From positions 21,667 to 85,666 of the IMG/VR virus record IMGVR_UViG_3300032267_000592: a stretch of DNA of 64,000 nucleotides. One strand, 5' to 3'. This DNA is from a virus. The translations under genes and the position numbers were made by a program. The notes under the pieces are model-generated. The model did not search any database, was not told the origin of the DNA, and saw only the letters and a program-made list of their open reading frames with translations. Positions 21,379 through 58,572 of this stretch are shown here, one piece after another (positions within the stretch are counted from its first letter, which is position 1; the number at the start of each line of letters is the position of its first letter).

Positions 21379-22123
21379 AACGATTAAAATACAAAAAAAT
21401 TCCTTACATAAATTATTAAAACCAGTAAACAGAATAACCGAAAGCTGTGTAATTAGATCAGGTTTAAATAATATCTATACTGTTTGCTCATCCAGCGACA
21501 ATAGTGTTATTTTATATGCTAAGACTGATACATCTGATCAGTTAGACAATGTAAAATTTAATTTAATTAACATTAAAAAATTTTTAAATGGGCTGGACTG
21601 CTTGGGTGATCTTGGTGAATTTAGCATGGTTTATGACACAAACAGCATCACTTGTAATAGTATCGATGACTCTAATGGAGAAAATACATATTTTAAATAT
21701 CATTTAGTGGATGACAATATCATTAAAGAGTCTCCGATTGATGTAGAATATATTGCTACGTTAAAATTTGATACAATTTTTGAAATACCATCTTCAAAAA
21801 TAAAACAAATCATGTCTGCATATTCTTATGTTGATAACGTAAATAAAATTTACTTTTATACGAAGGATGGAAAAGTACATGCGGAAATAAATGATAAAAC
21901 TATGCAAAACATTGATAATGTATCATTAACCGTTTCGTCTAATTACGATGGAGATGAAATATTGATACCACTATCATTGAAAATAGAAATATTTAAAAGT
22001 TTATCTTTAACGAAAAATTCTATAAAGGTTAAATTGAATAATGAACATAAAGTTTTCATATTTCAAACTCAAGAAGATGAGAATACCGAATTAAAATATA
22101 TAATTTCAGCACTTGTTAAATAA
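21371..22123 (+). CDS. 45: gp45-like sliding clamp
   Basis: The 250-residue protein has two related beta-rich halves, as expected for a trimeric PCNA/gp45 ring. LHKLLKPVNRITESCVIRSG parallels the T4 gp45 opening, FNLINIKKFLNGLDCL the first-domain FDLxxFL-type helix, and PSSKIKQIMSAYSYVD the interdomain segment. YIISALVK is the closing strand. Clamps tether polymerase and, in T4, activate late transcription together with gp33 and gp55. Assignment rests on pattern and context, not on a search. Confidence 0.82.
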   Translation: MSKTIKIQKNSLHKLLKPVNRITESCVIRSGLNNIYTVCSSSDNSVILYAKTDTSDQLDNVKFNLINIKKFLNGLDCLGDLGEFSMVYDTNSITCNSIDDSNGENTYFKYHLVDDNIIKESPIDVEYIATLKFDTIFEIPSSKIKQIMSAYSYVDNVNKIYFYTKDGKVHAEINDKTMQNIDNVSLTVSSNYDGDEILIPLSLKIEIFKSLSLTKNSIKVKLNNEHKVFIFQTQEDENTELKYIISALVK

Positions 22124-49113: not shown

Positions 49114-49917
49114 TTACTTACACCCATCAAGTATAATTTTAGACTCTTTCTTTAAATCTAAACATTCAATTAATTCATAATTTTCTTCACCATTAACCCA
49201 AACGATGTAAGACTTCGGAACTTTGAACGATGTTACTTTTTCAATTATCGTAGAATATAAAGATAATTGTAGACTATATTTTGCATATTCACATTGTTGT
49301 AAATGTTTTAATTCTTTTAAAAGAGTTTCTTTTCTTGGATTTTTTCTTTTAATTTCTTTATTTGTTTTATAATCAAACATAACTAATTCTTTAGTTTTAA
49401 AATTATAAGAAAGGTTATCTATACTACCACATATACCCGATTCTTTATCACCAACAACAAATTCTGATTTTATTAAAATATGATCTTGTTTCCACCAGTT
49501 ATAAAAGTTTATAAAATTTCTAATCAAAAGAGCAAGCTCTTTATAATACAAATCTACTGAATTGTTTGATCTAAATTCTTTTTTATTCTTAAAAAATAAA
49601 TTTATAGAATCTCTGTCTAAACTTATTTTTTTTCTGTTGAAATAATTCTCAACATATTTGTGAAACTCTGATCCCTTATGACAAGAATAATCTTTTGCAA
49701 ACTCCCACTGGTTTAATATTTCTTCAACCGTAAACCCATCTCGCTGTGCAACAAACGATGCGGCTTTTTCAGAATCAAACGGTTTCTCATATTTTTTAAT
49801 TAACTGAGAAACTGACATCTTAGCAGGTTCTCCAGATATTGTGTATTTATGATCCTTTTCAAAAAATAAAATATCCGAAAAACTATTTTCCAAACTTACA
49901 AGGGTGTCGAAATTCAT
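49114..49917 (-). CDS. PD-(D/E)XK nuclease (RecB/Cas4-like)
   Basis: I start at the ATG at 49917, one base after the upstream stop; an in-frame TTG at 49929 is unlikely. Key parts are CHKGSEFHKYVENYF (His motif), SEFVVGDKESGICGSIDNL (first acids), ELVMFDYKTNKEIK (D-x-K) and CEYAKYSLQLSLYSTIIE (QxxxY). This is the full RecB-type nuclease core. It probably processes phage recombination intermediates or degrades host DNA. It follows the AAA ATPase gene. Confidence 0.85.
   Translation of the reverse strand: MNFDTLVSLENSFSDILFFEKDHKYTISGEPAKMSVSQLIKKYEKPFDSEKAASFVAQRDGFTVEEILNQWEFAKDYSCHKGSEFHKYVENYFNRKKISLDRDSINLFFKNKKEFRSNNSVDLYYKELALLIRNFINFYNWWKQDHILIKSEFVVGDKESGICGSIDNLSYNFKTKELVMFDYKTNKEIKRKNPRKETLLKELKHLQQCEYAKYSLQLSLYSTIIEKVTSFKVPKSYIVWVNGEENYELIECLDLKKESKIILDGCK
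49115..49122 (-). promoter_or_regulatory. Late-like promoter box TGTAAGTA
   Basis: TGTAAGTA on the minus strand, 9 nt before the ATG at 49105, at the very end of the nuclease gene. Confidence 0.4.
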
Positions 49918-49918
49918 A

Positions 49919-51118
49919 TTAAAACCCAAATCCTATTCTGTTTTCTTCTTTTTTAGTTTCTCCCATTTCGGTTTTCTTTGTTAGATTATAAATTTCAGCG
50001 ATTACCATCTTTTTTGTAATGTTTTCCTCTATTTCTTTTTTGGAGAACCCAAGATGCTTTGCGAGTTTCTTGGCATCTTCGATTTCCAACGGACCAAATT
50101 CATAATCAACTTGCAATCTACCCTTTCTCCTTAATGCCTCATCAATATCTTGTTTTGGGCAATTGTATGTTAAAATCAAAGGACATTTGAGAATATCCCC
50201 AAGAATACCATCCGACAAATTAAGAAGCGATGTAACCGCAGAAGAATCATAATTATCACCCATTCTCTTTACAATAGTTTTCTCCGCATCCTCCAGAATA
50301 AGGACTGAGTTTTTCTTTTGAAGTAGAGAAGAAAGAGTGCTTGGATTATTAACAAAAGATTCAATCATTGTGGCAGGAATATAAATGAAATCTTTGTTAA
50401 CTTTGGTAGTAAGATACTTCAAGAAAGTACTCTTACCAGCACCGGGCGCACCATGAAACATGTACAATCCTTTATCCTGCGTACTCAATCTTTCGACTAT
50501 TTGTTTTTCTACATCTAAGAATTTTTTACCATAGTTTAATTCTATGTTTATGTCATCAGGCATAGACATTTTAATTGGTTCAAAGACGTATTCATCATAT
50601 CTATTCTTAACGAAAAGATGTATCTTGGATGAATCTGAAACTTCAATAAATGATTCAAAATCTTTCAATGGAAGATTTTTAGTATCAGAAGTGTAAATCA
50701 TAACCATTTCATATGTTTTATCTATATTATTTTTTAATCTTTCATTTAAAGATTCCTCTCCTATAGCATGTACCTCACCATTCATATCAGTGAAAGTTAC
50801 ATTGCTAATATCCGAATTTTTAACCATCAATTTTACATATATATCTTTATATGAAAATAAAATAGAACCACCCTTAAATGATTCACTATCATTTAATAAC
50901 AATTTCAATTTACCAGAACAAGAACTAAAAATAAATTCACCTCTTTCCAACAAAAAACTCAAAATACTAGATTTGAATGTTTCATCTATATACAAAAAAC
51001 ATGGAGGATATTTAGAATATGTGCTTATATATCTAGCAATTGGAAATTCGTTTCCATTATCATGGTTGATGTAAAAATCGGTTAAATCTGTTTGGAGTGT
51101 TTTTCTTGGATTAAACAT
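49919..51118 (-). CDS. AAA+ ATPase (Bcs1-like)
   Basis: The 399-residue protein has an N-terminal non-ATPase region (1-215), then LYMFHGAPGAGKSTFLKYL (Walker A, about 221-239). SVLILEDAEK (Walker B, Asp-Ala in place of Asp-Glu) and PLILTYNCPKQDIDEALRRKGRL (sensor and arginine finger) follow. The AAA core is like Bcs1 or NSF-type remodellers rather than the clamp loader. It is cotranscribed with the PD-(D/E)XK nuclease, which may be its partner. Confidence 0.82.
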   Translation of the reverse strand: MFNPRKTLQTDLTDFYINHDNGNEFPIARYISTYSKYPPCFLYIDETFKSSILSFLLERGEFIFSSCSGKLKLLLNDSESFKGGSILFSYKDIYVKLMVKNSDISNVTFTDMNGEVHAIGEESLNERLKNNIDKTYEMVMIYTSDTKNLPLKDFESFIEVSDSSKIHLFVKNRYDEYVFEPIKMSMPDDINIELNYGKKFLDVEKQIVERLSTQDKGLYMFHGAPGAGKSTFLKYLTTKVNKDFIYIPATMIESFVNNPSTLSSLLQKKNSVLILEDAEKTIVKRMGDNYDSSAVTSLLNLSDGILGDILKCPLILTYNCPKQDIDEALRRKGRLQVDYEFGPLEIEDAKKLAKHLGFSKKEIEENITKKMVIAEIYNLTKKTEMGETKKEENRIGFGF

Positions 51119-51172
51119 AAAAATATACTAATCTTGTTTCTAAAAATATGCAATCAAAAAATAAATATATAT

Positions 51173-51541
51173 GTGAAAACTTTAACCAAAAAACAAATCG
51201 AAGAAATACATGAAAAATGCGTAAAATTGGTTAAACGGAAACCCGCAGAATTTTTCAATTTAAGAAAAATGAACAAATATGAAGGATCTTGTAATTGGAC
51301 AGATTTAGAAATAGATTACAGAAGAGAATTATTGTCAACTGCTTATCATGAATGTGTTCACTATATTTTTCCAGATTATTCGGAAAGTATGGTGAAATAT
51401 ATAGAAAGTAGAATAGTAAACGTTTGTGAACCATTAGATTTAGCATATTTTTTAAAAATACTATCCAACAAGTTATATAAATCCGAACTACAGAAACGAA
51501 TATCTAACACTAAAAAACCTTTGACTTCTAGAAAAAAATAG
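51173..51541 (+). CDS. Predicted HExxH metallopeptidase
   Basis: I propose the GTG at 51173, giving 122 residues. The frame is open further upstream, but that would overlap the divergent ATPase gene and gives non-conserved sequence. FNLRKMNKYEGSCNW, IDYRRELLSTAYHECVHYIFPDYSE and ESRIVN are the landmarks, with HECVH as the zinc site and a downstream glutamate. This is a small conserved phage family resembling SprT/WLM-type peptidases. The target is unknown. Confidence 0.7.
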   Translation: MKTLTKKQIEEIHEKCVKLVKRKPAEFFNLRKMNKYEGSCNWTDLEIDYRRELLSTAYHECVHYIFPDYSESMVKYIESRIVNVCEPLDLAYFLKILSNKLYKSELQKRISNTKKPLTSRKK

Positions 51542-51576
51542 AAGATACTTGATGAGTATTCACTAAATATAACACT

Positions 51577-52551
51577 ATGATTTTCGAAGAACAAATATCG
51601 CGCAAACCAAACAATTATCCTTGGACAGAAAAATTTATTGAAAGTATGCACAATGGATTTTGGACAGATAAAGAGTTTTCATTTAAGTCTGATGTTCAAC
51701 AATTTAAAGTTAGTTTAACAGATCAAGAACGAGAAATAATAATACGAACATTATCTGCAATCGGACAAATTGAAATTGCCGTAAAATCTTTTTGGTCAAA
51801 GCTTGGTGAGAATCTCCCACACCCATCACTACAAGACTTGGGGTACGTTATGGCTAATACAGAAGTCATCCATAATAATGCTTATGAGCGCCTAATTTCA
51901 ACTCTTGGACTGGAAGATGTATTTGAAAATAATCTAAAATTAGATTGGATTCAAGGTAGAGTCAAATATCTCAAAAAATATACCCACCGCTATTATAAAG
52001 ATTCAAAGAAACAATATGTTTATGCATTGACTCTTTTTACTTTATTTGTTGAAAATGTTTCTCTGTTTTCTCAATTCTATGTAATCAATTGGTTTGCTCG
52101 TTTTAAAAATGTTCTTAAAGATACGGATCAACAAGTAAAATATACACGAAACGAAGAAAATATTCATGGTATGGTGGGTGCTCAAATTATTAACACCATT
52201 AGAGAAGAATATCCAGAATTGTTTGATGATGAATTTGTAAAAAAAATTATTGCCGAAGCTAAAGAAGCATATGAAGCAGAAGCAAAAATTATAGATTGGA
52301 TGATAAATGGAATTAAAGAAGATGGTCTTAGTGCTGTTATTCTTAAAGAATTTGTTAAAAATAGAATCAATGAATCCCTTAAAATGATTGGATTTCCTGC
52401 TGCATTTGAGATTGACAAAGATATTATATCGTCTACAATGTGGTTTACAGAGGAATTATTGGGAAACAATATGGTTGATTTTTTTAGTTCCAGACCCACA
52501 GAATACTCTAAAAAATCACAATGTTTTGATGAAGACGCATTATTCGGTTAA
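51577..52551 (+). CDS. nrdB: Ribonucleotide reductase class I small subunit
   Basis: The 324-residue ferritin-fold protein has IGQIEIAVKSFW (first carboxylate) and ANTEVIHNNAYERL (E-x-x-H then the radical tyrosine seven residues after the Glu). FTLFVENVSLFSQF (second helix Glu) and RNEENIHGMVGAQI (E-x-x-H) follow. All metal ligands and the tyrosine are present. The C-terminal tail ends FDEDALFG and would bind the large subunit. It makes deoxynucleotides with NrdA, but an HNH gene now lies between the two. Confidence 0.95.
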   Translation: MIFEEQISRKPNNYPWTEKFIESMHNGFWTDKEFSFKSDVQQFKVSLTDQEREIIIRTLSAIGQIEIAVKSFWSKLGENLPHPSLQDLGYVMANTEVIHNNAYERLISTLGLEDVFENNLKLDWIQGRVKYLKKYTHRYYKDSKKQYVYALTLFTLFVENVSLFSQFYVINWFARFKNVLKDTDQQVKYTRNEENIHGMVGAQIINTIREEYPELFDDEFVKKIIAEAKEAYEAEAKIIDWMINGIKEDGLSAVILKEFVKNRINESLKMIGFPAAFEIDKDIISSTMWFTEELLGNNMVDFFSSRPTEYSKKSQCFDEDALFG

Positions 52552-52562
52552 TTATTTTTTAA

Positions 52563-52985
52563 ATGGATATATCAGTAATAAAAAAAGCAATTTCTTCGGA
52601 AATTAAAAAAACTTTATATGGATGTTTTTGTTTTGAGTGTGGAAGTAAAAAAGAATTACACCAACATCACGTAATTCCTAAAAGCTTGGGTGGTATGAAT
52701 ACGATCTCTCTTTGTTCGAAATGTCATTCAAAAATACATAATCTGAATTTTAGAGATCATAGCATTTTAATAAAAAAAGGATTGGAAAAATCAAAACAAG
52801 CTGGTATTATCTTAGGAAGACCTAAAAACAGTGGATATTCCGATAATGAAGTATTAGATAAACATAATGATGTTTTATCGGAATTAAAAATGGGTTGCAG
52901 TATTAGAAAAACTGCTAAAAAATTAAATAAAGGAACTTCGACAGTACAGAGAGTTAAAAGACTCTTAAATAAAAATAATTTATGA
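52563..52985 (+). CDS. HNH endonuclease with C-terminal recombinase-type HTH
   Basis: Residues 20-62 are an HNH domain: CFECGSKKELHQHHVIPKSLGG, then CSKCHSKIH. After a linker with LGRPKN, the C-terminus (ELKMGCSIRKTAKKLNKGTSTVQRVKRLL) is a helix-turn-helix like that of serine recombinases. It is a free-standing homing-type endonuclease between nrdB and nrdA. Its stop overlaps the nrdA ATG (ATGA), so it is integrated into the operon's translation. Phage nrd genes are known hot spots for such genes. Confidence 0.85.
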   Translation: MDISVIKKAISSEIKKTLYGCFCFECGSKKELHQHHVIPKSLGGMNTISLCSKCHSKIHNLNFRDHSILIKKGLEKSKQAGIILGRPKNSGYSDNEVLDKHNDVLSELKMGCSIRKTAKKLNKGTSTVQRVKRLLNKNNL

Positions 52986-54634
52986 CAAACAAATACGAAT
53001 GGCTAAACAAAGACTCACGAAAATTTCTCGAAAGAGGTTATTTGTTAGAGGGAGAAACAGCAGAACAAAGAATTAGAGATATTGCAGAAACAGCAGAAAA
53101 ATATTTAAATTCAGAAGGATTTGCTGATAAATTTGAAGATTATATGTCTAGAGGATTTTTTTCCTTATCAAGCCCAATCTGGTCAAATTTCGGAAGAAAG
53201 AGAGGTCTTCCAATCTCATGCTTTGGTTCATACATTCCAGACACTATGGAAGGAATCATGGAAAAGGTTTCGGAAACCGCTGTGATGACAAAACATGGTG
53301 GTGGAACATCTGCTTATTTTGGTGGGCTTCGTGGAAGAGGAACTCCAATTTCGTCTGGTGGAGAATCTACGGGTTCTGTACATTTCATGGAGTTGTTTGA
53401 TAAACTAATGAATGTTGTTTCTCAAGGAAATGTTCGCAGGGGGTCGTTTGCTGCATATCTCCCAATTGATCATCCAGACATTGAAGAGTTTTTAAAAATC
53501 AAATCTGAAGGATGTGACATCCAAGATATATCAATCGGAGTATCAGTTTCGGATGAATGGATGAAAAAAATGATTGATGGTGATAAAAACGCTCGTAAAA
53601 TTTGGGTTCTTGTTATCAAGAAGCGTTTTGAATCTGGTTATCCGTATATTTTCTTTAGTGATAATGCTAACAACCAAGCACCACAAATTTATAAAGATAA
53701 AGGAATTAAGATTAATAATTCCAATCTTTGTTCAGAAATTATGCTTTCTAATTCGGAAGATGAATCTTTCGTGTGCGATCTTTCTTCTCTAAATTTAGAA
53801 ACATGGGAAGAATGGACTTGTGATACTGTTGAAGTTTTAGTTTATTTCTTGGATGCTGTAATGTCGGAATTTATTGAAAAAACTGAAGGGATGAAGTTCA
53901 TGGAAGCACCTAGAAAGTTTGCTATGAATCAAAGAGCATTAGGGGTTGGTGTTTTAGGTTGGCATTCTTTGTTACAATCCAAGATGATTGGATTTGAATC
54001 AATGGAAGCAAAGATGCTAAACAATCAAATTTGGGGAGATATTAGAAAACGTGCTGACTATGCGACAAGGTTTTTAGCACAAAATTTTGGAAATGCTCCG
54101 ATTTACGAAGGAACTGAATATACGAGAAGAAACACAACGACTCTTGCAGTTGCTCCCACCACATCATCTAGTTTTATTCTTGGGCAAGTATCTCCTAGTA
54201 TCGAACCATTGAATAGTAACTATTATGTTCGAGATTTGGCTAAAGGTAAGTTTACATATAAAAATCCTTATCTAAAAAAACTATTGAAAATAAAAAATCA
54301 AGATAATGATGAAATTTGGAAATCGATATTAATTCGCGGTGGTTCTGTTCAACATTTAGAATTTCTTTCTGAACACGAAAGAGATGTATTTAAAACGTTT
54401 GAAGAAACCTCACAAAAAGAAATTATAATACAAGCAGCATCTCGTCAGCGTTATATTGATCAAGGTCAAAGTTTAAATATGTTAATCCCAGCAGGAACAC
54501 CACCAAAAGCAGTTAATGAATTGATTATATTTGCATGGGAACAAGGAATTAAAAGTCTTTATTATCAAAGATCAACAAATCCGGCTCAGACTTTAGCCAG
54601 AAATATAATGACTTGCAAAAGTTGTGAAGGTTAA
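52982..54634 (+). CDS. nrdA: Ribonucleotide reductase class I large subunit, short form
   Basis: The 550-residue protein lacks an ATP-cone and starts near the ten-stranded barrel: SLSSPIWSNFGRKRGLPISC, then KHGGGTSAYFGGLRGRG. SNLCSEIMLSNSEDESFVCDLSSLNL contains the N-x-C-x-E active-site loop, and APTTSSSFILGQVSPSIEP follows. The C-terminus has the redox pair CKSC. The shorter length is what I recall for marine-phage NrdA. A second, diverged copy of its last 43 codons lies at 55358-55489. Confidence 0.94.
   Translation: MTNKYEWLNKDSRKFLERGYLLEGETAEQRIRDIAETAEKYLNSEGFADKFEDYMSRGFFSLSSPIWSNFGRKRGLPISCFGSYIPDTMEGIMEKVSETAVMTKHGGGTSAYFGGLRGRGTPISSGGESTGSVHFMELFDKLMNVVSQGNVRRGSFAAYLPIDHPDIEEFLKIKSEGCDIQDISIGVSVSDEWMKKMIDGDKNARKIWVLVIKKRFESGYPYIFFSDNANNQAPQIYKDKGIKINNSNLCSEIMLSNSEDESFVCDLSSLNLETWEEWTCDTVEVLVYFLDAVMSEFIEKTEGMKFMEAPRKFAMNQRALGVGVLGWHSLLQSKMIGFESMEAKMLNNQIWGDIRKRADYATRFLAQNFGNAPIYEGTEYTRRNTTTLAVAPTTSSSFILGQVSPSIEPLNSNYYVRDLAKGKFTYKNPYLKKLLKIKNQDNDEIWKSILIRGGSVQHLEFLSEHERDVFKTFEETSQKEIIIQAASRQRYIDQGQSLNMLIPAGTPPKAVNELIIFAWEQGIKSLYYQRSTNPAQTLARNIMTCKSCEG
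54503..54634 (+). repeat. nrdA 3' end, functional copy of a diverged duplication
   Basis: These 132 bases encode the last 43 residues of NrdA plus stop. They match 55358-55489 at 37 of 43 residues by hand count, while many third codon positions differ. The copies flank the HNH gene at 54649. Confidence 0.9.
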
Positions 54635-54648
54635 GTGTAAGTATTATC

Positions 54649-55356
54649 ATGAGAAATGATACCTTAACAACGGAAATTTTTATTAAAAAAGCATATATTA
54701 AACATAATAACACATATGATTATTCTAAAACAGAATATAAAGGTAGAAAAGAAAAATTAATAATAATATGTAAAATTCACGGAGAATTTGAACAACGAGC
54801 GGGAAATCATTTACAAGGACAAGGTTGTAAATTATGTGGGCTTAAAAACATGTCCGAAAAAATAAAAATTTGGAATAAAGATGATGATACGTTTATAAAA
54901 GAAAATTATTTAAAAATTGGAGCACCTTATTGTGCCAAAGTTTTAAATAAAACTTTAAATTCAATTTATCATAGAGTTAGAATTTTAAAAATAAAGAAAA
55001 ACTCTAAAAAATTAAATCATCCGTTTATTTCTGGTAAAATATGGTCTAATCTGGTAGCAAACTCTAAAAATAGAAAATTAAATCTAAAGATAACACCAGA
55101 TGACATTTATCAAAAATTTTTACAGCAAAATAAGAAATGCGCTTTGAGCGGTTTAGATATATCTTTAACATTTGATACAAAAACTAATACAGCTTCTGTA
55201 GATAGAATAGACTCTAAACAACATTATACTAAAGATAATATACAGATAGTCCACAAAATAATAAATCAATGCAAAATGGATTTAAATGATTCTGATTTTT
55301 ATAAATTTTGCAAATCAGTTTATTTCAACTTAAAAGAAAAATATGAAAATAAATAA
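54649..55356 (+). CDS. Free-standing HNH-type homing endonuclease
   Basis: In this 235-residue protein, an N-terminal DNA-binding module (FIKKAYIKHNNTYDYSKTEY, then IICKIHGEFEQ, HLQGQGCKLCG) is followed by an HTH (DDTFIKENYLKIGAPYCAKVL). The C-terminal nuclease reads CALSGLDISL, then ASVDRIDSKQHYTKDNIQIVH and NQCKMDLND. It starts 14 nt after the nrdA stop and is followed by a leftover nrdA 3' end. It presumably cleaves nrdA alleles that lack the insertion. Confidence 0.85.
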   Translation: MRNDTLTTEIFIKKAYIKHNNTYDYSKTEYKGRKEKLIIICKIHGEFEQRAGNHLQGQGCKLCGLKNMSEKIKIWNKDDDTFIKENYLKIGAPYCAKVLNKTLNSIYHRVRILKIKKNSKKLNHPFISGKIWSNLVANSKNRKLNLKITPDDIYQKFLQQNKKCALSGLDISLTFDTKTNTASVDRIDSKQHYTKDNIQIVHKIINQCKMDLNDSDFYKFCKSVYFNLKEKYENK

Positions 55357-55489
55357 ACCAAAAGATGTAAATGAACTTATGATTTTTGCTTGGGAACAAG
55401 GAATTAAGTCTTTATATTATCAACGCAGTGCAAATCCCGCACAAGAACTTGCAAGATCTATAATGACATGTAAATCATGTGAAGCGTAA
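55343..55489 (+). pseudogene. Second, diverged nrdA 3' end fragment
   Basis: An ATG overlapping the HNH gene end opens a 48-residue frame. Its residues 6-48 (NELMIFAWEQGIKSLYYQRS and on to CKSCEA) reproduce the NrdA C-terminus including the CxxC. There are 6 differences in 43 residues and many silent ones, so it is not a recent copy. It is best read as the resident nrdA tail displaced when the HNH cassette arrived with its own tail. A small expressed peptide is possible but unlikely to be functional. Confidence 0.85.
55358..55489 (+). repeat. nrdA 3' end, displaced copy
   Basis: This is the counterpart of 54503-54634, separated from it by the HNH gene. Confidence 0.9.
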
Positions 55490-55519
55490 CTTATAATATT
55501 TGTTAAATAAAAAGATAAG

Positions 55520-55527
55520 TATAAATT
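55520..55527 (+). promoter_or_regulatory. Late-like promoter box TATAAATT
   Basis: TATAAATT, 7 nt before the ATG at 55535. It is one mismatch from the recurring box. Confidence 0.45.
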
Positions 55528-55534
55528 AAATATC

Positions 55535-56074
55535 ATGTATTCAAATCAAAAAGATCAAATTAGTTTAGAAGAAGCTTATAGGAATGTTCATAATGACACT
55601 ATAAACGAAGATGCAAACGAGACTATAGGCGGTAGTATCCTTTACGGCACTTTGCTTCTTCCCATTCTTATAGATTATTTAGCTAAAAAATACCCACAAG
55701 TTGGTCAAAAATTATCTAGTATTAAAGATTATTTGAAAAATAAAATTTCTAGCGATGAAACATTAAATACAAAAAAACAAAACGCAGATGAACATGGGGG
55801 AGAAGGCGCTACGGATTATTACAATGATTTAAATAAAAAAATAGCAATGAATATAAAAGATGATCAAACATTTAGAAGTGCTATAGACAATGCTTATGAA
55901 AAGACCATATTACAAGATATAGTTAATCTTTTACCTAAAAATTTAACAAATAAAAATGAGCAACAAGCTAAAATAGAATTAAATAAAAACATACAGCAAG
56001 ATGTTGCCACAAAAACACAAGATCAGAAAAGAAAAGAAATGGGACTTCCACCCGTACCAACAATCAGAGGATAA
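55535..56074 (+). CDS. Unknown late protein with LEEAY tag
   Basis: The 179-residue protein has ISLEEAYRNVHNDTINEDA at the N-terminus, sharing the LEEAY-x-x-V-x-N pattern with the 48863 product. A short hydrophobic stretch (ILYGTLLLPILIDYLAKKY) around residues 35-53 may be a membrane or buried helix. The rest is helical, polar and Gln/Lys-rich. No family recognised. Late promoter and tag suggest a virion-associated protein. Confidence 0.68.
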   Translation: MYSNQKDQISLEEAYRNVHNDTINEDANETIGGSILYGTLLLPILIDYLAKKYPQVGQKLSSIKDYLKNKISSDETLNTKKQNADEHGGEGATDYYNDLNKKIAMNIKDDQTFRSAIDNAYEKTILQDIVNLLPKNLTNKNEQQAKIELNKNIQQDVATKTQDQKRKEMGLPPVPTIRG

Positions 56075-56077
56075 TAT

Positions 56078-56221
56078 ATGGCAGGAAAAGGTGATAAACC
56101 AAGACCAGTAAACAAAAAAATATATAATAGCAATTACGACGATATTAATTTTGAATTAAATCAAAAAAGTAATCAAATGGAAATAAAAAATAAAAACGGC
56201 AAAAAAACATATAAATATTAA
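56078..56221 (+). CDS. GKGD-x-PRPV small conserved phage protein
   Basis: The 47-residue protein begins MAGKGDKPRPVNKKIYNSNY. The GKGDxPRPV...Y...NYD pattern is a very common tiny phage protein of unknown function. It ends with a Lys-rich KNKNGKKTYKY tail. It starts 3 nt after the previous stop, which supports a co-transcribed gene. Confidence 0.72.
   Translation: MAGKGDKPRPVNKKIYNSNYDDINFELNQKSNQMEIKNKNGKKTYKY
56210..56217 (+). promoter_or_regulatory. Late-type box TATAAATA
   Basis: TATAAATA inside the end of the GKGD gene, 19 nt before the ATG at 56237. Confidence 0.35.
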
Positions 56222-56236
56222 TATAATTTTTATTTA

Positions 56237-56425
56237 ATGAAAAAAATAGAAACTTGTATATTTAAAGAAAATGATACATTTTTTTTAGATTTGTTAAAAT
56301 GGAAATCAATTTCAGATATTGAAATAGAAAATAATGATATTTTCAATTTTAGTTTTGAAAATAAATCATATAAAGTTAAAGTTATTAGCATCACCAACTA
56401 TGAAGCAAAATTGAAATTAATCTAA
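56237..56425 (+). CDS. Unknown 62-aa protein
   Basis: MKKIETCIFKENDTFFLDLL begins an all-beta-like small protein that closes with YKVKVISITNYEAKLKLI. No motif identified. It sits between two late-promoter boxes, in a row of small late genes. Confidence 0.6.
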   Translation: MKKIETCIFKENDTFFLDLLKWKSISDIEIENNDIFNFSFENKSYKVKVISITNYEAKLKLI

Positions 56426-56440
56426 TTTCATATTTTTTTT

Positions 56441-56448
56441 TATAAATA
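56441..56448 (+). promoter_or_regulatory. Late promoter box TATAAATA
   Basis: TATAAATA, 9 nt before the ATG at 56458. It drives the large virion protein gene. Confidence 0.58.
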
Positions 56449-56457
56449 TTAGTTAAC

Positions 56458-58572
56458 ATGGCTTATCTTTTAACTAATAATATATCAGCAGAACCTATAA
56501 ATTGCAATGTAGGTTATAACAATTCTTGGTTAAAGGTAGATAATAATGCAGGTAGAAATCTATATGCACAAGCATCATACATAACAAACTTTAAAGACAT
56601 AAATATAAGTTTGTCGGCTTCGGATGTTGATATTGGATCGGTTCACATCCAAGACCCAACCACAGGTTTAAAGGCTGATGTTGTGTCAGTTGGAATCGGA
56701 ATGGGAGCATTGAGGGTAATAACTCAAGATTTGGAATCAAAGGAAGATGATGTATCTATAGGTGATAGACTTGGTAATTTTGCAGCCGTATATCCAACAC
56801 TAAGCGCACTTAAAGTTTACAATACAAATCCTATATCTTCTGTAGATATAACAAATATTGTTACGGTAAAGTCATCTAATACATTTCCAATATCTGGATC
56901 TGTAACTGTTTTAAATCCAATTACAAGCATCAACATCACTAATCCTTCTTTTACAATTTCTAATTCTTCAATTGAAATTTCAAATGATGTTGGGAATCCG
57001 GTTCCGGTTTCATTCACATCTTCCATTTCAACAACACCAATTGGTACTCAAAATGTAACATATGCAGATTCTGTTTATATAGATGAGTCGAGCAGACTTA
57101 GAGTTGCTACACCACAAACTCAATGGTGGTTTGTGGCGACCGTCGATAAAGATGGAGATTTAAGATATAACGAATCTTTTGTAGCGGGCGCTTCTTCTAT
57201 CTTTGTTCAGAATCTTGCAAGTGTTAATATGACATCTAATACGACGAGTGTTAGTGGTCAAGCAATACGAGCATCAAGAAGAAGACATAAGATTATACCC
57301 GGTCTTTCACATGAATATACTGGCGTTTGGAATTGGGACGGACAACAAGCAAATACCGTAAAGCGAATTGGTATCTTTACTCAATTTAATGGTTACTTTT
57401 TTGAATTGTCTGGAACAAATGCAATGAATGCAGTTGTTCGCAGAAGATTACCAGACGGAACCTTAGTTGAGGAAAGAGTAAATCAAACTGAATGGAATGG
57501 AGATAGGCTTGATGGAAGCGGTCCAAGCGCAGAAAACTGGAACGCCTTAACACAAACTGCTGCAATTACTGGATGGGTTTCAACGACAACAGTTACCCCG
57601 CAAAATGCTATTCCGATGTATAATGTTGTATATGGACTATCGGCTGGACAGGTTCAAAACTTTAGACAAGGAACAAAGGCAACAATAACTGGTATTACTC
57701 CATCTGGACATAATGCCGTTGCTACAGTTGCTAAGACTGATACAGCAACAAATAGACTTACTGCAACTTATTTGTTCAATCCGGGTGCTTCTGTTAGTAA
57801 TATAAACAGTGCTTCAATGACACAAACCGGATATCATATGCAACACACCTATTGGATTGATTTCATGGGTGGCAGAACAAATAGAATTCGTTTTGGTAAA
57901 GCATCTGATTATGGAAAGATAGTTCTTCATACATTTAGATTTGATGGTCTTCTTGGAACAGCATATGAAAATGCTCCAACATTAACAGAAAGAAAAGAAA
58001 TTTATAATATTGGTACTCCTACATCATTCCCGAGTTTTACTGTAATGGGAAATTCTTTCAACGTAGAAGCAGCAGTTGATATTACACCAAATTTTAATGT
58101 AGCAAGAAATAATACCGGTATTACTTTTGATACTGCGGATGAATTTCCAATTTTAGGTTTAGCTCTTCGTGCAGGAGAACCATATCAAAGAGCAGATATT
58201 CAACTCCAAAATTTGTATATTATGGATATTGCAAACATGGATAACAACAACAATAAAGCATGTTTTTCTTGGAGAGTTGTTTTAAATCCATCAATTCAAG
58301 GAACAATACCAGCATCAACAAATATTGGAAAGGCGTCTAGACAATGGCAATATACCACAGCAAATAGTGTATCCGGTGGAATTGATTTAATTGGTGGGTA
58401 TGGTGTATCCACTTTAACTGAAAATTTTCCAACAGCTTTGAACTTCATTAATATGGGATCTAATATCGACAATACGGATTCCGATAAGATTGTAGTTGTT
58501 GCAAAGCTCCTCAACAAAGGAACAGCTAATTCTGATTTAGTTGCTACAATGAATTTTATTGAAGCATTGTAA
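56458..58572 (+). CDS. Large virion structural protein (fibre/decoration type)
   Basis: The 704-residue protein has an N-terminal Ser/Thr/Asn/Ile-rich beta-repeat part (about 30-200), followed by a conserved-looking domain. That domain includes RRRHKIIPGLSHEYTGVWNW, KRIGIFTQFNGYFFEL, WNGDRLDGSGPS and YWIDFMGGRTNRIRFG. I recall this second block from structural proteins of large marine phages. Codon use is less AT-biased here, as in other abundant proteins. The exact place in the virion is unknown. Confidence 0.72.
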   Translation: MAYLLTNNISAEPINCNVGYNNSWLKVDNNAGRNLYAQASYITNFKDINISLSASDVDIGSVHIQDPTTGLKADVVSVGIGMGALRVITQDLESKEDDVSIGDRLGNFAAVYPTLSALKVYNTNPISSVDITNIVTVKSSNTFPISGSVTVLNPITSINITNPSFTISNSSIEISNDVGNPVPVSFTSSISTTPIGTQNVTYADSVYIDESSRLRVATPQTQWWFVATVDKDGDLRYNESFVAGASSIFVQNLASVNMTSNTTSVSGQAIRASRRRHKIIPGLSHEYTGVWNWDGQQANTVKRIGIFTQFNGYFFELSGTNAMNAVVRRRLPDGTLVEERVNQTEWNGDRLDGSGPSAENWNALTQTAAITGWVSTTTVTPQNAIPMYNVVYGLSAGQVQNFRQGTKATITGITPSGHNAVATVAKTDTATNRLTATYLFNPGASVSNINSASMTQTGYHMQHTYWIDFMGGRTNRIRFGKASDYGKIVLHTFRFDGLLGTAYENAPTLTERKEIYNIGTPTSFPSFTVMGNSFNVEAAVDITPNFNVARNNTGITFDTADEFPILGLALRAGEPYQRADIQLQNLYIMDIANMDNNNNKACFSWRVVLNPSIQGTIPASTNIGKASRQWQYTTANSVSGGIDLIGGYGVSTLTENFPTALNFINMGSNIDNTDSDKIVVVAKLLNKGTANSDLVATMNFIEAL

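Follow-up and report, generated by a model that had tools for sequence, protein, structure and literature searches.

The window, a stretch of 64,000 nucleotides (positions 21,667 to 85,666) of the 85.7-kb virus record IMGVR_UViG_3300032267_000592 from a tailed, uncultured phage, carries a ribonucleotide reductase locus in the order nrdB, HNH1, nrdA, HNH2, a second nrdA tail, and a gene of unknown function, all on the plus strand. The resident nrdB (51577..52551) encodes the small subunit (Pfam PF00268, E = 2.4e-46; PHROG 86). It is followed in the nrdB-nrdA gap by the HNH endonuclease gene HNH1 (52563..52985), which overlaps nrdA in an ATGA and matches Pfam PF01844 above the cut-off. nrdA itself (52982-54634) is complete, and its 550-aa product aligns full-length with NrdA of relatives. 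HNH2 (54649..55356), which encodes a predicted free-standing homing endonuclease of 235 aa, starts 14 nt past the end of nrdA, and its stop codon reaches two bases into the second nrdA tail (55355..55489; 44 codons plus a stop). This tail belongs to an open frame of 48 aa (55343-55489) whose ATG at 55343 lies within the end of HNH2. The gene of unknown function behind it (55535..56074) shares its opening residues (MYSNQKDQ) with a gene that follows nrdA in L012 and L015, two relatives without the insertion. The double-tail arrangement is known from this one assembled, metagenome-derived contig only.

An earlier note, made from the sequence alone, had described the last 43 codons of nrdA as occurring twice around an HNH gene, with 37 of 43 residues matching but many silent differences, and had argued against a recent local duplication. 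The two copies are indeed present, and since the resident sequence starts again at 55355 (AAACCAAAAG), the duplicated stretch comprises 44 codons rather than 43. The upstream copy (U, 54503-54634) and the downstream copy (D) share 37/43 residues and 93/132 bases, with 17 codons differing silently and seven by a residue change. A search of the phage's own genome recovered the second copy at E = 4.7e-20, far above chance. The tail of the uninserted relative L001 is identical to D at 125/132 nucleotides, versus 95/132 for U. D differs from the L001 tail by a single residue and retains YYQR and the C-terminal CxxC. In a tree that included both tails, U fell in a second, foreign clade and D among the resident relatives, nearest to L001 (123/129 sites), and a sister grouping of U and D was rejected (p-AU = 0.013). 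D resembles the resident sequence right from its first base, and the alignment of its 3' flank with L009 and L019 extends beyond the stop, to 55527. Given the conflicting trees and the rejected sister grouping, the upstream tail is foreign and the downstream tail is a resident stub, which bears out the argument against recent local duplication.

We then compared nrdA with that of relatives lacking the HNH2 gene. Such relatives exist: HNH2 is absent from L001 to L016, and the nearest of these (L001 to L003; NrdA protein identity, 92 to 93%, versus 83 to 88% for L004 to L016), like other uninserted relatives, have a single nrdA tail each. Codons 1 to 403 of the window gene (52982..54192) are 91 to 94% identical to L001 to L003 at the nucleotide level, and codons 404 to 550 (54193..54634, including U) are 70 to 73% identical. 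The recombination test proposed in the earlier note detected a breakpoint at 54193, at about codon 404, with pooled likelihood intervals spanning 54178 to 54220. For the three relatives, the maximum chi-square at the break was 82, 147, and 158, compared to permutation maxima of 20 to 42. All three of these pairs drop by 17 to 23 points over codons 404 to 549; as a control, none of 25 other pairs with a body identity of at least 88% drops by more than 10 points in the same codons.

The separate phylogenies of body and tail that had also been suggested are in conflict. In the body tree, the window nrdA groups with L002, L003, and L001 (support, 100/98 to 100/99). In the tree of codons 404 to 550, it joins L025 (100/98), and both belong to a clade of 20 rows (100/99) that does not contain L001 to L003, and forcing this segment together with L001 to L003 was rejected (p-AU = 0.0027). 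The nearest nrdA 3' segment to the foreign part is 77% identical at the DNA level. Some exchange at the 3' end of the gene takes place without a local HNH2: codons 524 to 549 of L003, which lacks HNH2, are only 76 to 79% identical to L001 and L002 (the rest, ∼93 to 94%) and are nearest to L007 (88%).

The foreign sequence thus begins at about 54193, preceding the duplicated stretch by some 100 codons, and with the resident sequence resuming at 55355, the foreign tract measures about 1.16 kb (∼54193 to 55354). Words shared with L001 to L003 at the left break reach 23 nt at most, and of those crossing the right junction (55354/55355), none longer than 14 nt recurs in any locus fetched. Reading frames are unbroken across both joins, and the foreign end is in frame with the resident body. 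The earlier note had envisaged an endonuclease cassette that arrived with a foreign nrdA 3' end, was joined in frame, and left the resident tail stranded. This account stands, except that the import is not limited to 43 codons plus the HNH gene: in addition to bringing U and HNH2, the foreign tract took the place of about 100 codons of the resident gene, and it therefore looks like a co-conversion tract rather than such a cassette.

HNH2 matches PHROG 3322 and the endonuclease VII family 1035 (E = 1e-13 to 1e-15), the HNH family 3118, and, in its N-terminal part, PHROGs 681 and 559. Its C-terminal half is endonuclease VII/HNH-like, and the N-terminal domain is common to other phage endonucleases. 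Pfam gave no HNH2 match above the cut-off, a profile search against solved structures gave none, and the predicted structure is a poor model (pLDDT, 46). A profile scan of bacterial genomes found relatives of the N-terminal part only. No Rfam intron family was matched in 51000 to 57000, and no self-splicing RNA was found around HNH2. As nrdA reads to its own stop before the insertion, we rejected an intron or intein at this site. Among relatives, nrdA of L135 (1427-4204; also L122, L124, L127, L134, and L148) contains, at codon 250, an insertion of ∼1.1 kb; it is open in frame in L135 and intein-like, beginning at the Cys of NLC and ending in HN before CSEI; the window gene does not have it. 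L122 and L124 have an apparent further insertion near codons 79 to 111.

In L165 and L172 to L175, five contigs from a phage group that is more distantly related (NrdA, 73% identical), a complete nrdA with one tail is followed after 7 nt by the start of an HNH2 homologue (50 to 51% identical). HNH2 thus varies in presence and absence behind nrdA, and a donor-type arrangement, in which nrdA is followed by the nuclease without a stub, exists in nature; that the donor was organized in this way is plausible. The L165 group carries the nuclease without a U-type tail, and a search of IMG/VR for a near-identical donor combining such a tail with HNH2 found none. Because L165's own nrdA is resident-like where D begins, the edge of D need not mark the cut: either the L165 enzyme would cut elsewhere or the edge does not coincide with the cut. 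Phages of the foreign-tail clade (L068, L093, L098, and L100) have a different gene behind nrdA, of ∼190 to 195 aa (VLVLNRNWQAIHV...) and HNH-like by eye.

The gap between nrdB and nrdA, where the earlier note had placed a second, ATGA-coupled HNH gene, is commonly occupied: it exceeds 250 bp in 35 of 129 nrdA loci (window included), and by eye, many of the encoded proteins are GIY-YIG- and HNH-like and others are thioredoxin-like. One recurrent gene of 238 to 247 aa, GIY-YIG-like by eye (PYFYIIKH...KYYAGCK), is found there in 11 loci (L002, L007, L026, L033, L038, L047, L063, L066, L074, L109, and L111). HNH1 is absent from L001 and L003, where the gap is ∼20 nt, and with HNH1 and HNH2, the locus has been invaded twice, as had been proposed. 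Another contig, L407 (IMGVR_UViG_3300010885_041968), is 100% identical to 49563-53103 of the window, HNH1 included. It ends inside nrdA at 53103, before the double-tail site, and confirms the HNH1 junctions only.

Neither 326 related loci that include a tail nor 330 phage records yielded another double tail, with or without an HNH gene. Many of the contigs behind the 326 loci were fetched more than once; the loci comprise 135 nrdA sequences that are <97% identical, and records very close to that of the window may have escaped the search. In Staphylococcus phages MR003 and CF5 (L083 and L084), an inserted gene, annotated as an HNH endonuclease in CF5 and as hypothetical in MR003, cuts nrdA into two genes at different positions; no duplicated end was found in either. 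In a search of open-access papers, no report described a phage gene whose end had been replaced while the native end lay stranded.

The arrangement is probably the product of one-sided homing of a free-standing endonuclease gene from behind nrdA of another phage lineage. A break in the 3' region of the resident nrdA, presumably made by HNH2, would have been repaired from the donor. On the left, repair would have proceeded by homologous recombination within nrdA at about codon 404, and the donor's last 147 nrdA codons, together with the endonuclease gene behind them, would have been copied in. On the right, the copied end would have been joined without extended homology to what remained of the resident gene, at codon 507 (55354/55355); the lack of any recurring word of >14 nt across this junction points to a nonhomologous route. 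Such a repair, possibly completed in one step, would leave a complete hybrid NrdA and the last 44 resident codons as a dead or redundant frame before the native downstream gene. With the foreign end, NrdA stays whole, and the cleavage site may be lost as well; sparing the essential gene may be why the arrangement exists. HNH2 may cleave the uninserted allele, be inherited preferentially, and mobilize the unit.

Among the alternatives, the whole anatomy would fit a unit of foreign tail, HNH2, and trailing tail that was preformed in a close relative and came in by two-sided homing, the one-sided event being older and having occurred in another genome. Related fungal mitochondrial units have been described as mobile (PMC3630166). 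The uniqueness of the double tail among the loci and records searched and the resident look of D from its first base make this unlikely. We give clearly less weight to a mosaic exchange that first swapped the 3' end of nrdA, with the endonuclease gene and stub coming from a separate, unrelated event. Although nrdA is mosaic in this group, as in the last 25 codons of L003, such a sequence of events still owes an explanation of the resident stub beyond the endonuclease, joined to its native flank, where one event suffices, and no other closely related pair has such a drop in codons 404 to 549.

A chimeric assembly of two phage strains has to be considered for a single contig in a metagenome-derived record, and the identical contig L407 stops short of the site. 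Both junctions would need to be false, however, even though all frames are intact across them and the shared words reach only 23 nt on the left and at most 14 nt on the right, and we regard an artifact as very improbable. About equally hard to accept, if not slightly more so, is that the stub works as a second NrdA piece, on the model of phage Aeh1 with its split nrdA. Its intact frame, its own ATG, the retained YYQR and CxxC motifs, and the single residue separating it from L001 would suit such a role, but the upstream gene already encodes a whole NrdA that includes these motifs, and good preservation is also expected from a recent insertion. Least credible of all is that the nrdA tail was duplicated locally and the copies then diverged: this would explain why an insertion is flanked by two tandemly oriented copies but not why they fall in different clades.

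One-sided homing, as favored here, would have left a natural footprint in this phage: a single genome preserves both junctions, the imported tract, and the resident end that was cast off. The last quarter of nrdA, an essential gene for DNA building blocks, has been swapped from a different phage lineage. The locus connects the literatures on T4 homing and on fungal mitochondrial gene hybrids, and it yields a simple search rule, a duplicated gene end around an endonuclease gene, for tracing how selfish genes get into essential coding sequence and exchange gene ends from one lineage to another. We offer only tentatively the broader idea that endonuclease genes of phages can move together with a substitute end for the gene they target, as one unit, and so enter essential coding sequence harmlessly. 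If true, this would be a general route by which such genes invade and phage lineages trade gene ends, much as in fungal mitochondria.

Like the free-standing homing endonuclease genes of T-even phages (segF, segG, and mobE), HNH2 adjoins an essential gene of nucleotide metabolism or replication, and the neighboring gene is co-converted. Standard intronless homing has homology on either flank and produces no duplication, whereas here a stub of the target gene is left (PMC2988022). Phage Aeh1, in which mobE splits nrdA, shares the insertion of an endonuclease gene in the nrdA coding sequence; Aeh1 NrdA is made as two pieces that are both needed, whereas the window gene is whole by virtue of its replacement end (PMC2988022, PMC3653736). 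With nrdA complete upstream of the endonuclease, we rejected an Aeh1-type split for this locus. In T4, homing includes one-sided events with illegitimate, microhomology-based repair, long resection, and asymmetric co-conversion (PMC2988022). These resemble our case in having homology on one side, the other side in T4 involving microhomology and resection, but they come from an experimental system with a mobile intron rather than from a natural genome with a free-standing gene.

In fungal mitochondrial gene hybrids, found first in Allomyces macrogynus atp6 and then in atp6, atp9, cox2, and nad3 of Glomus sp., a foreign gene end is in frame with the resident body, followed by an endonuclease gene and, downstream, the native end; the native end matches close relatives, and the inserted end does not (PMC3630166). 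The present locus differs in being from a phage rather than a mitochondrion, in affecting nrdA rather than respiratory genes, and in carrying an endonuclease VII/HNH-like rather than a LAGLIDADG or GIY-YIG enzyme. The comparison with fungal atp6 drawn in the earlier note is nevertheless apt, as the anatomy is the same: a gene end duplicated around an endonuclease gene, with a foreign upstream copy fused in frame and a native copy downstream.
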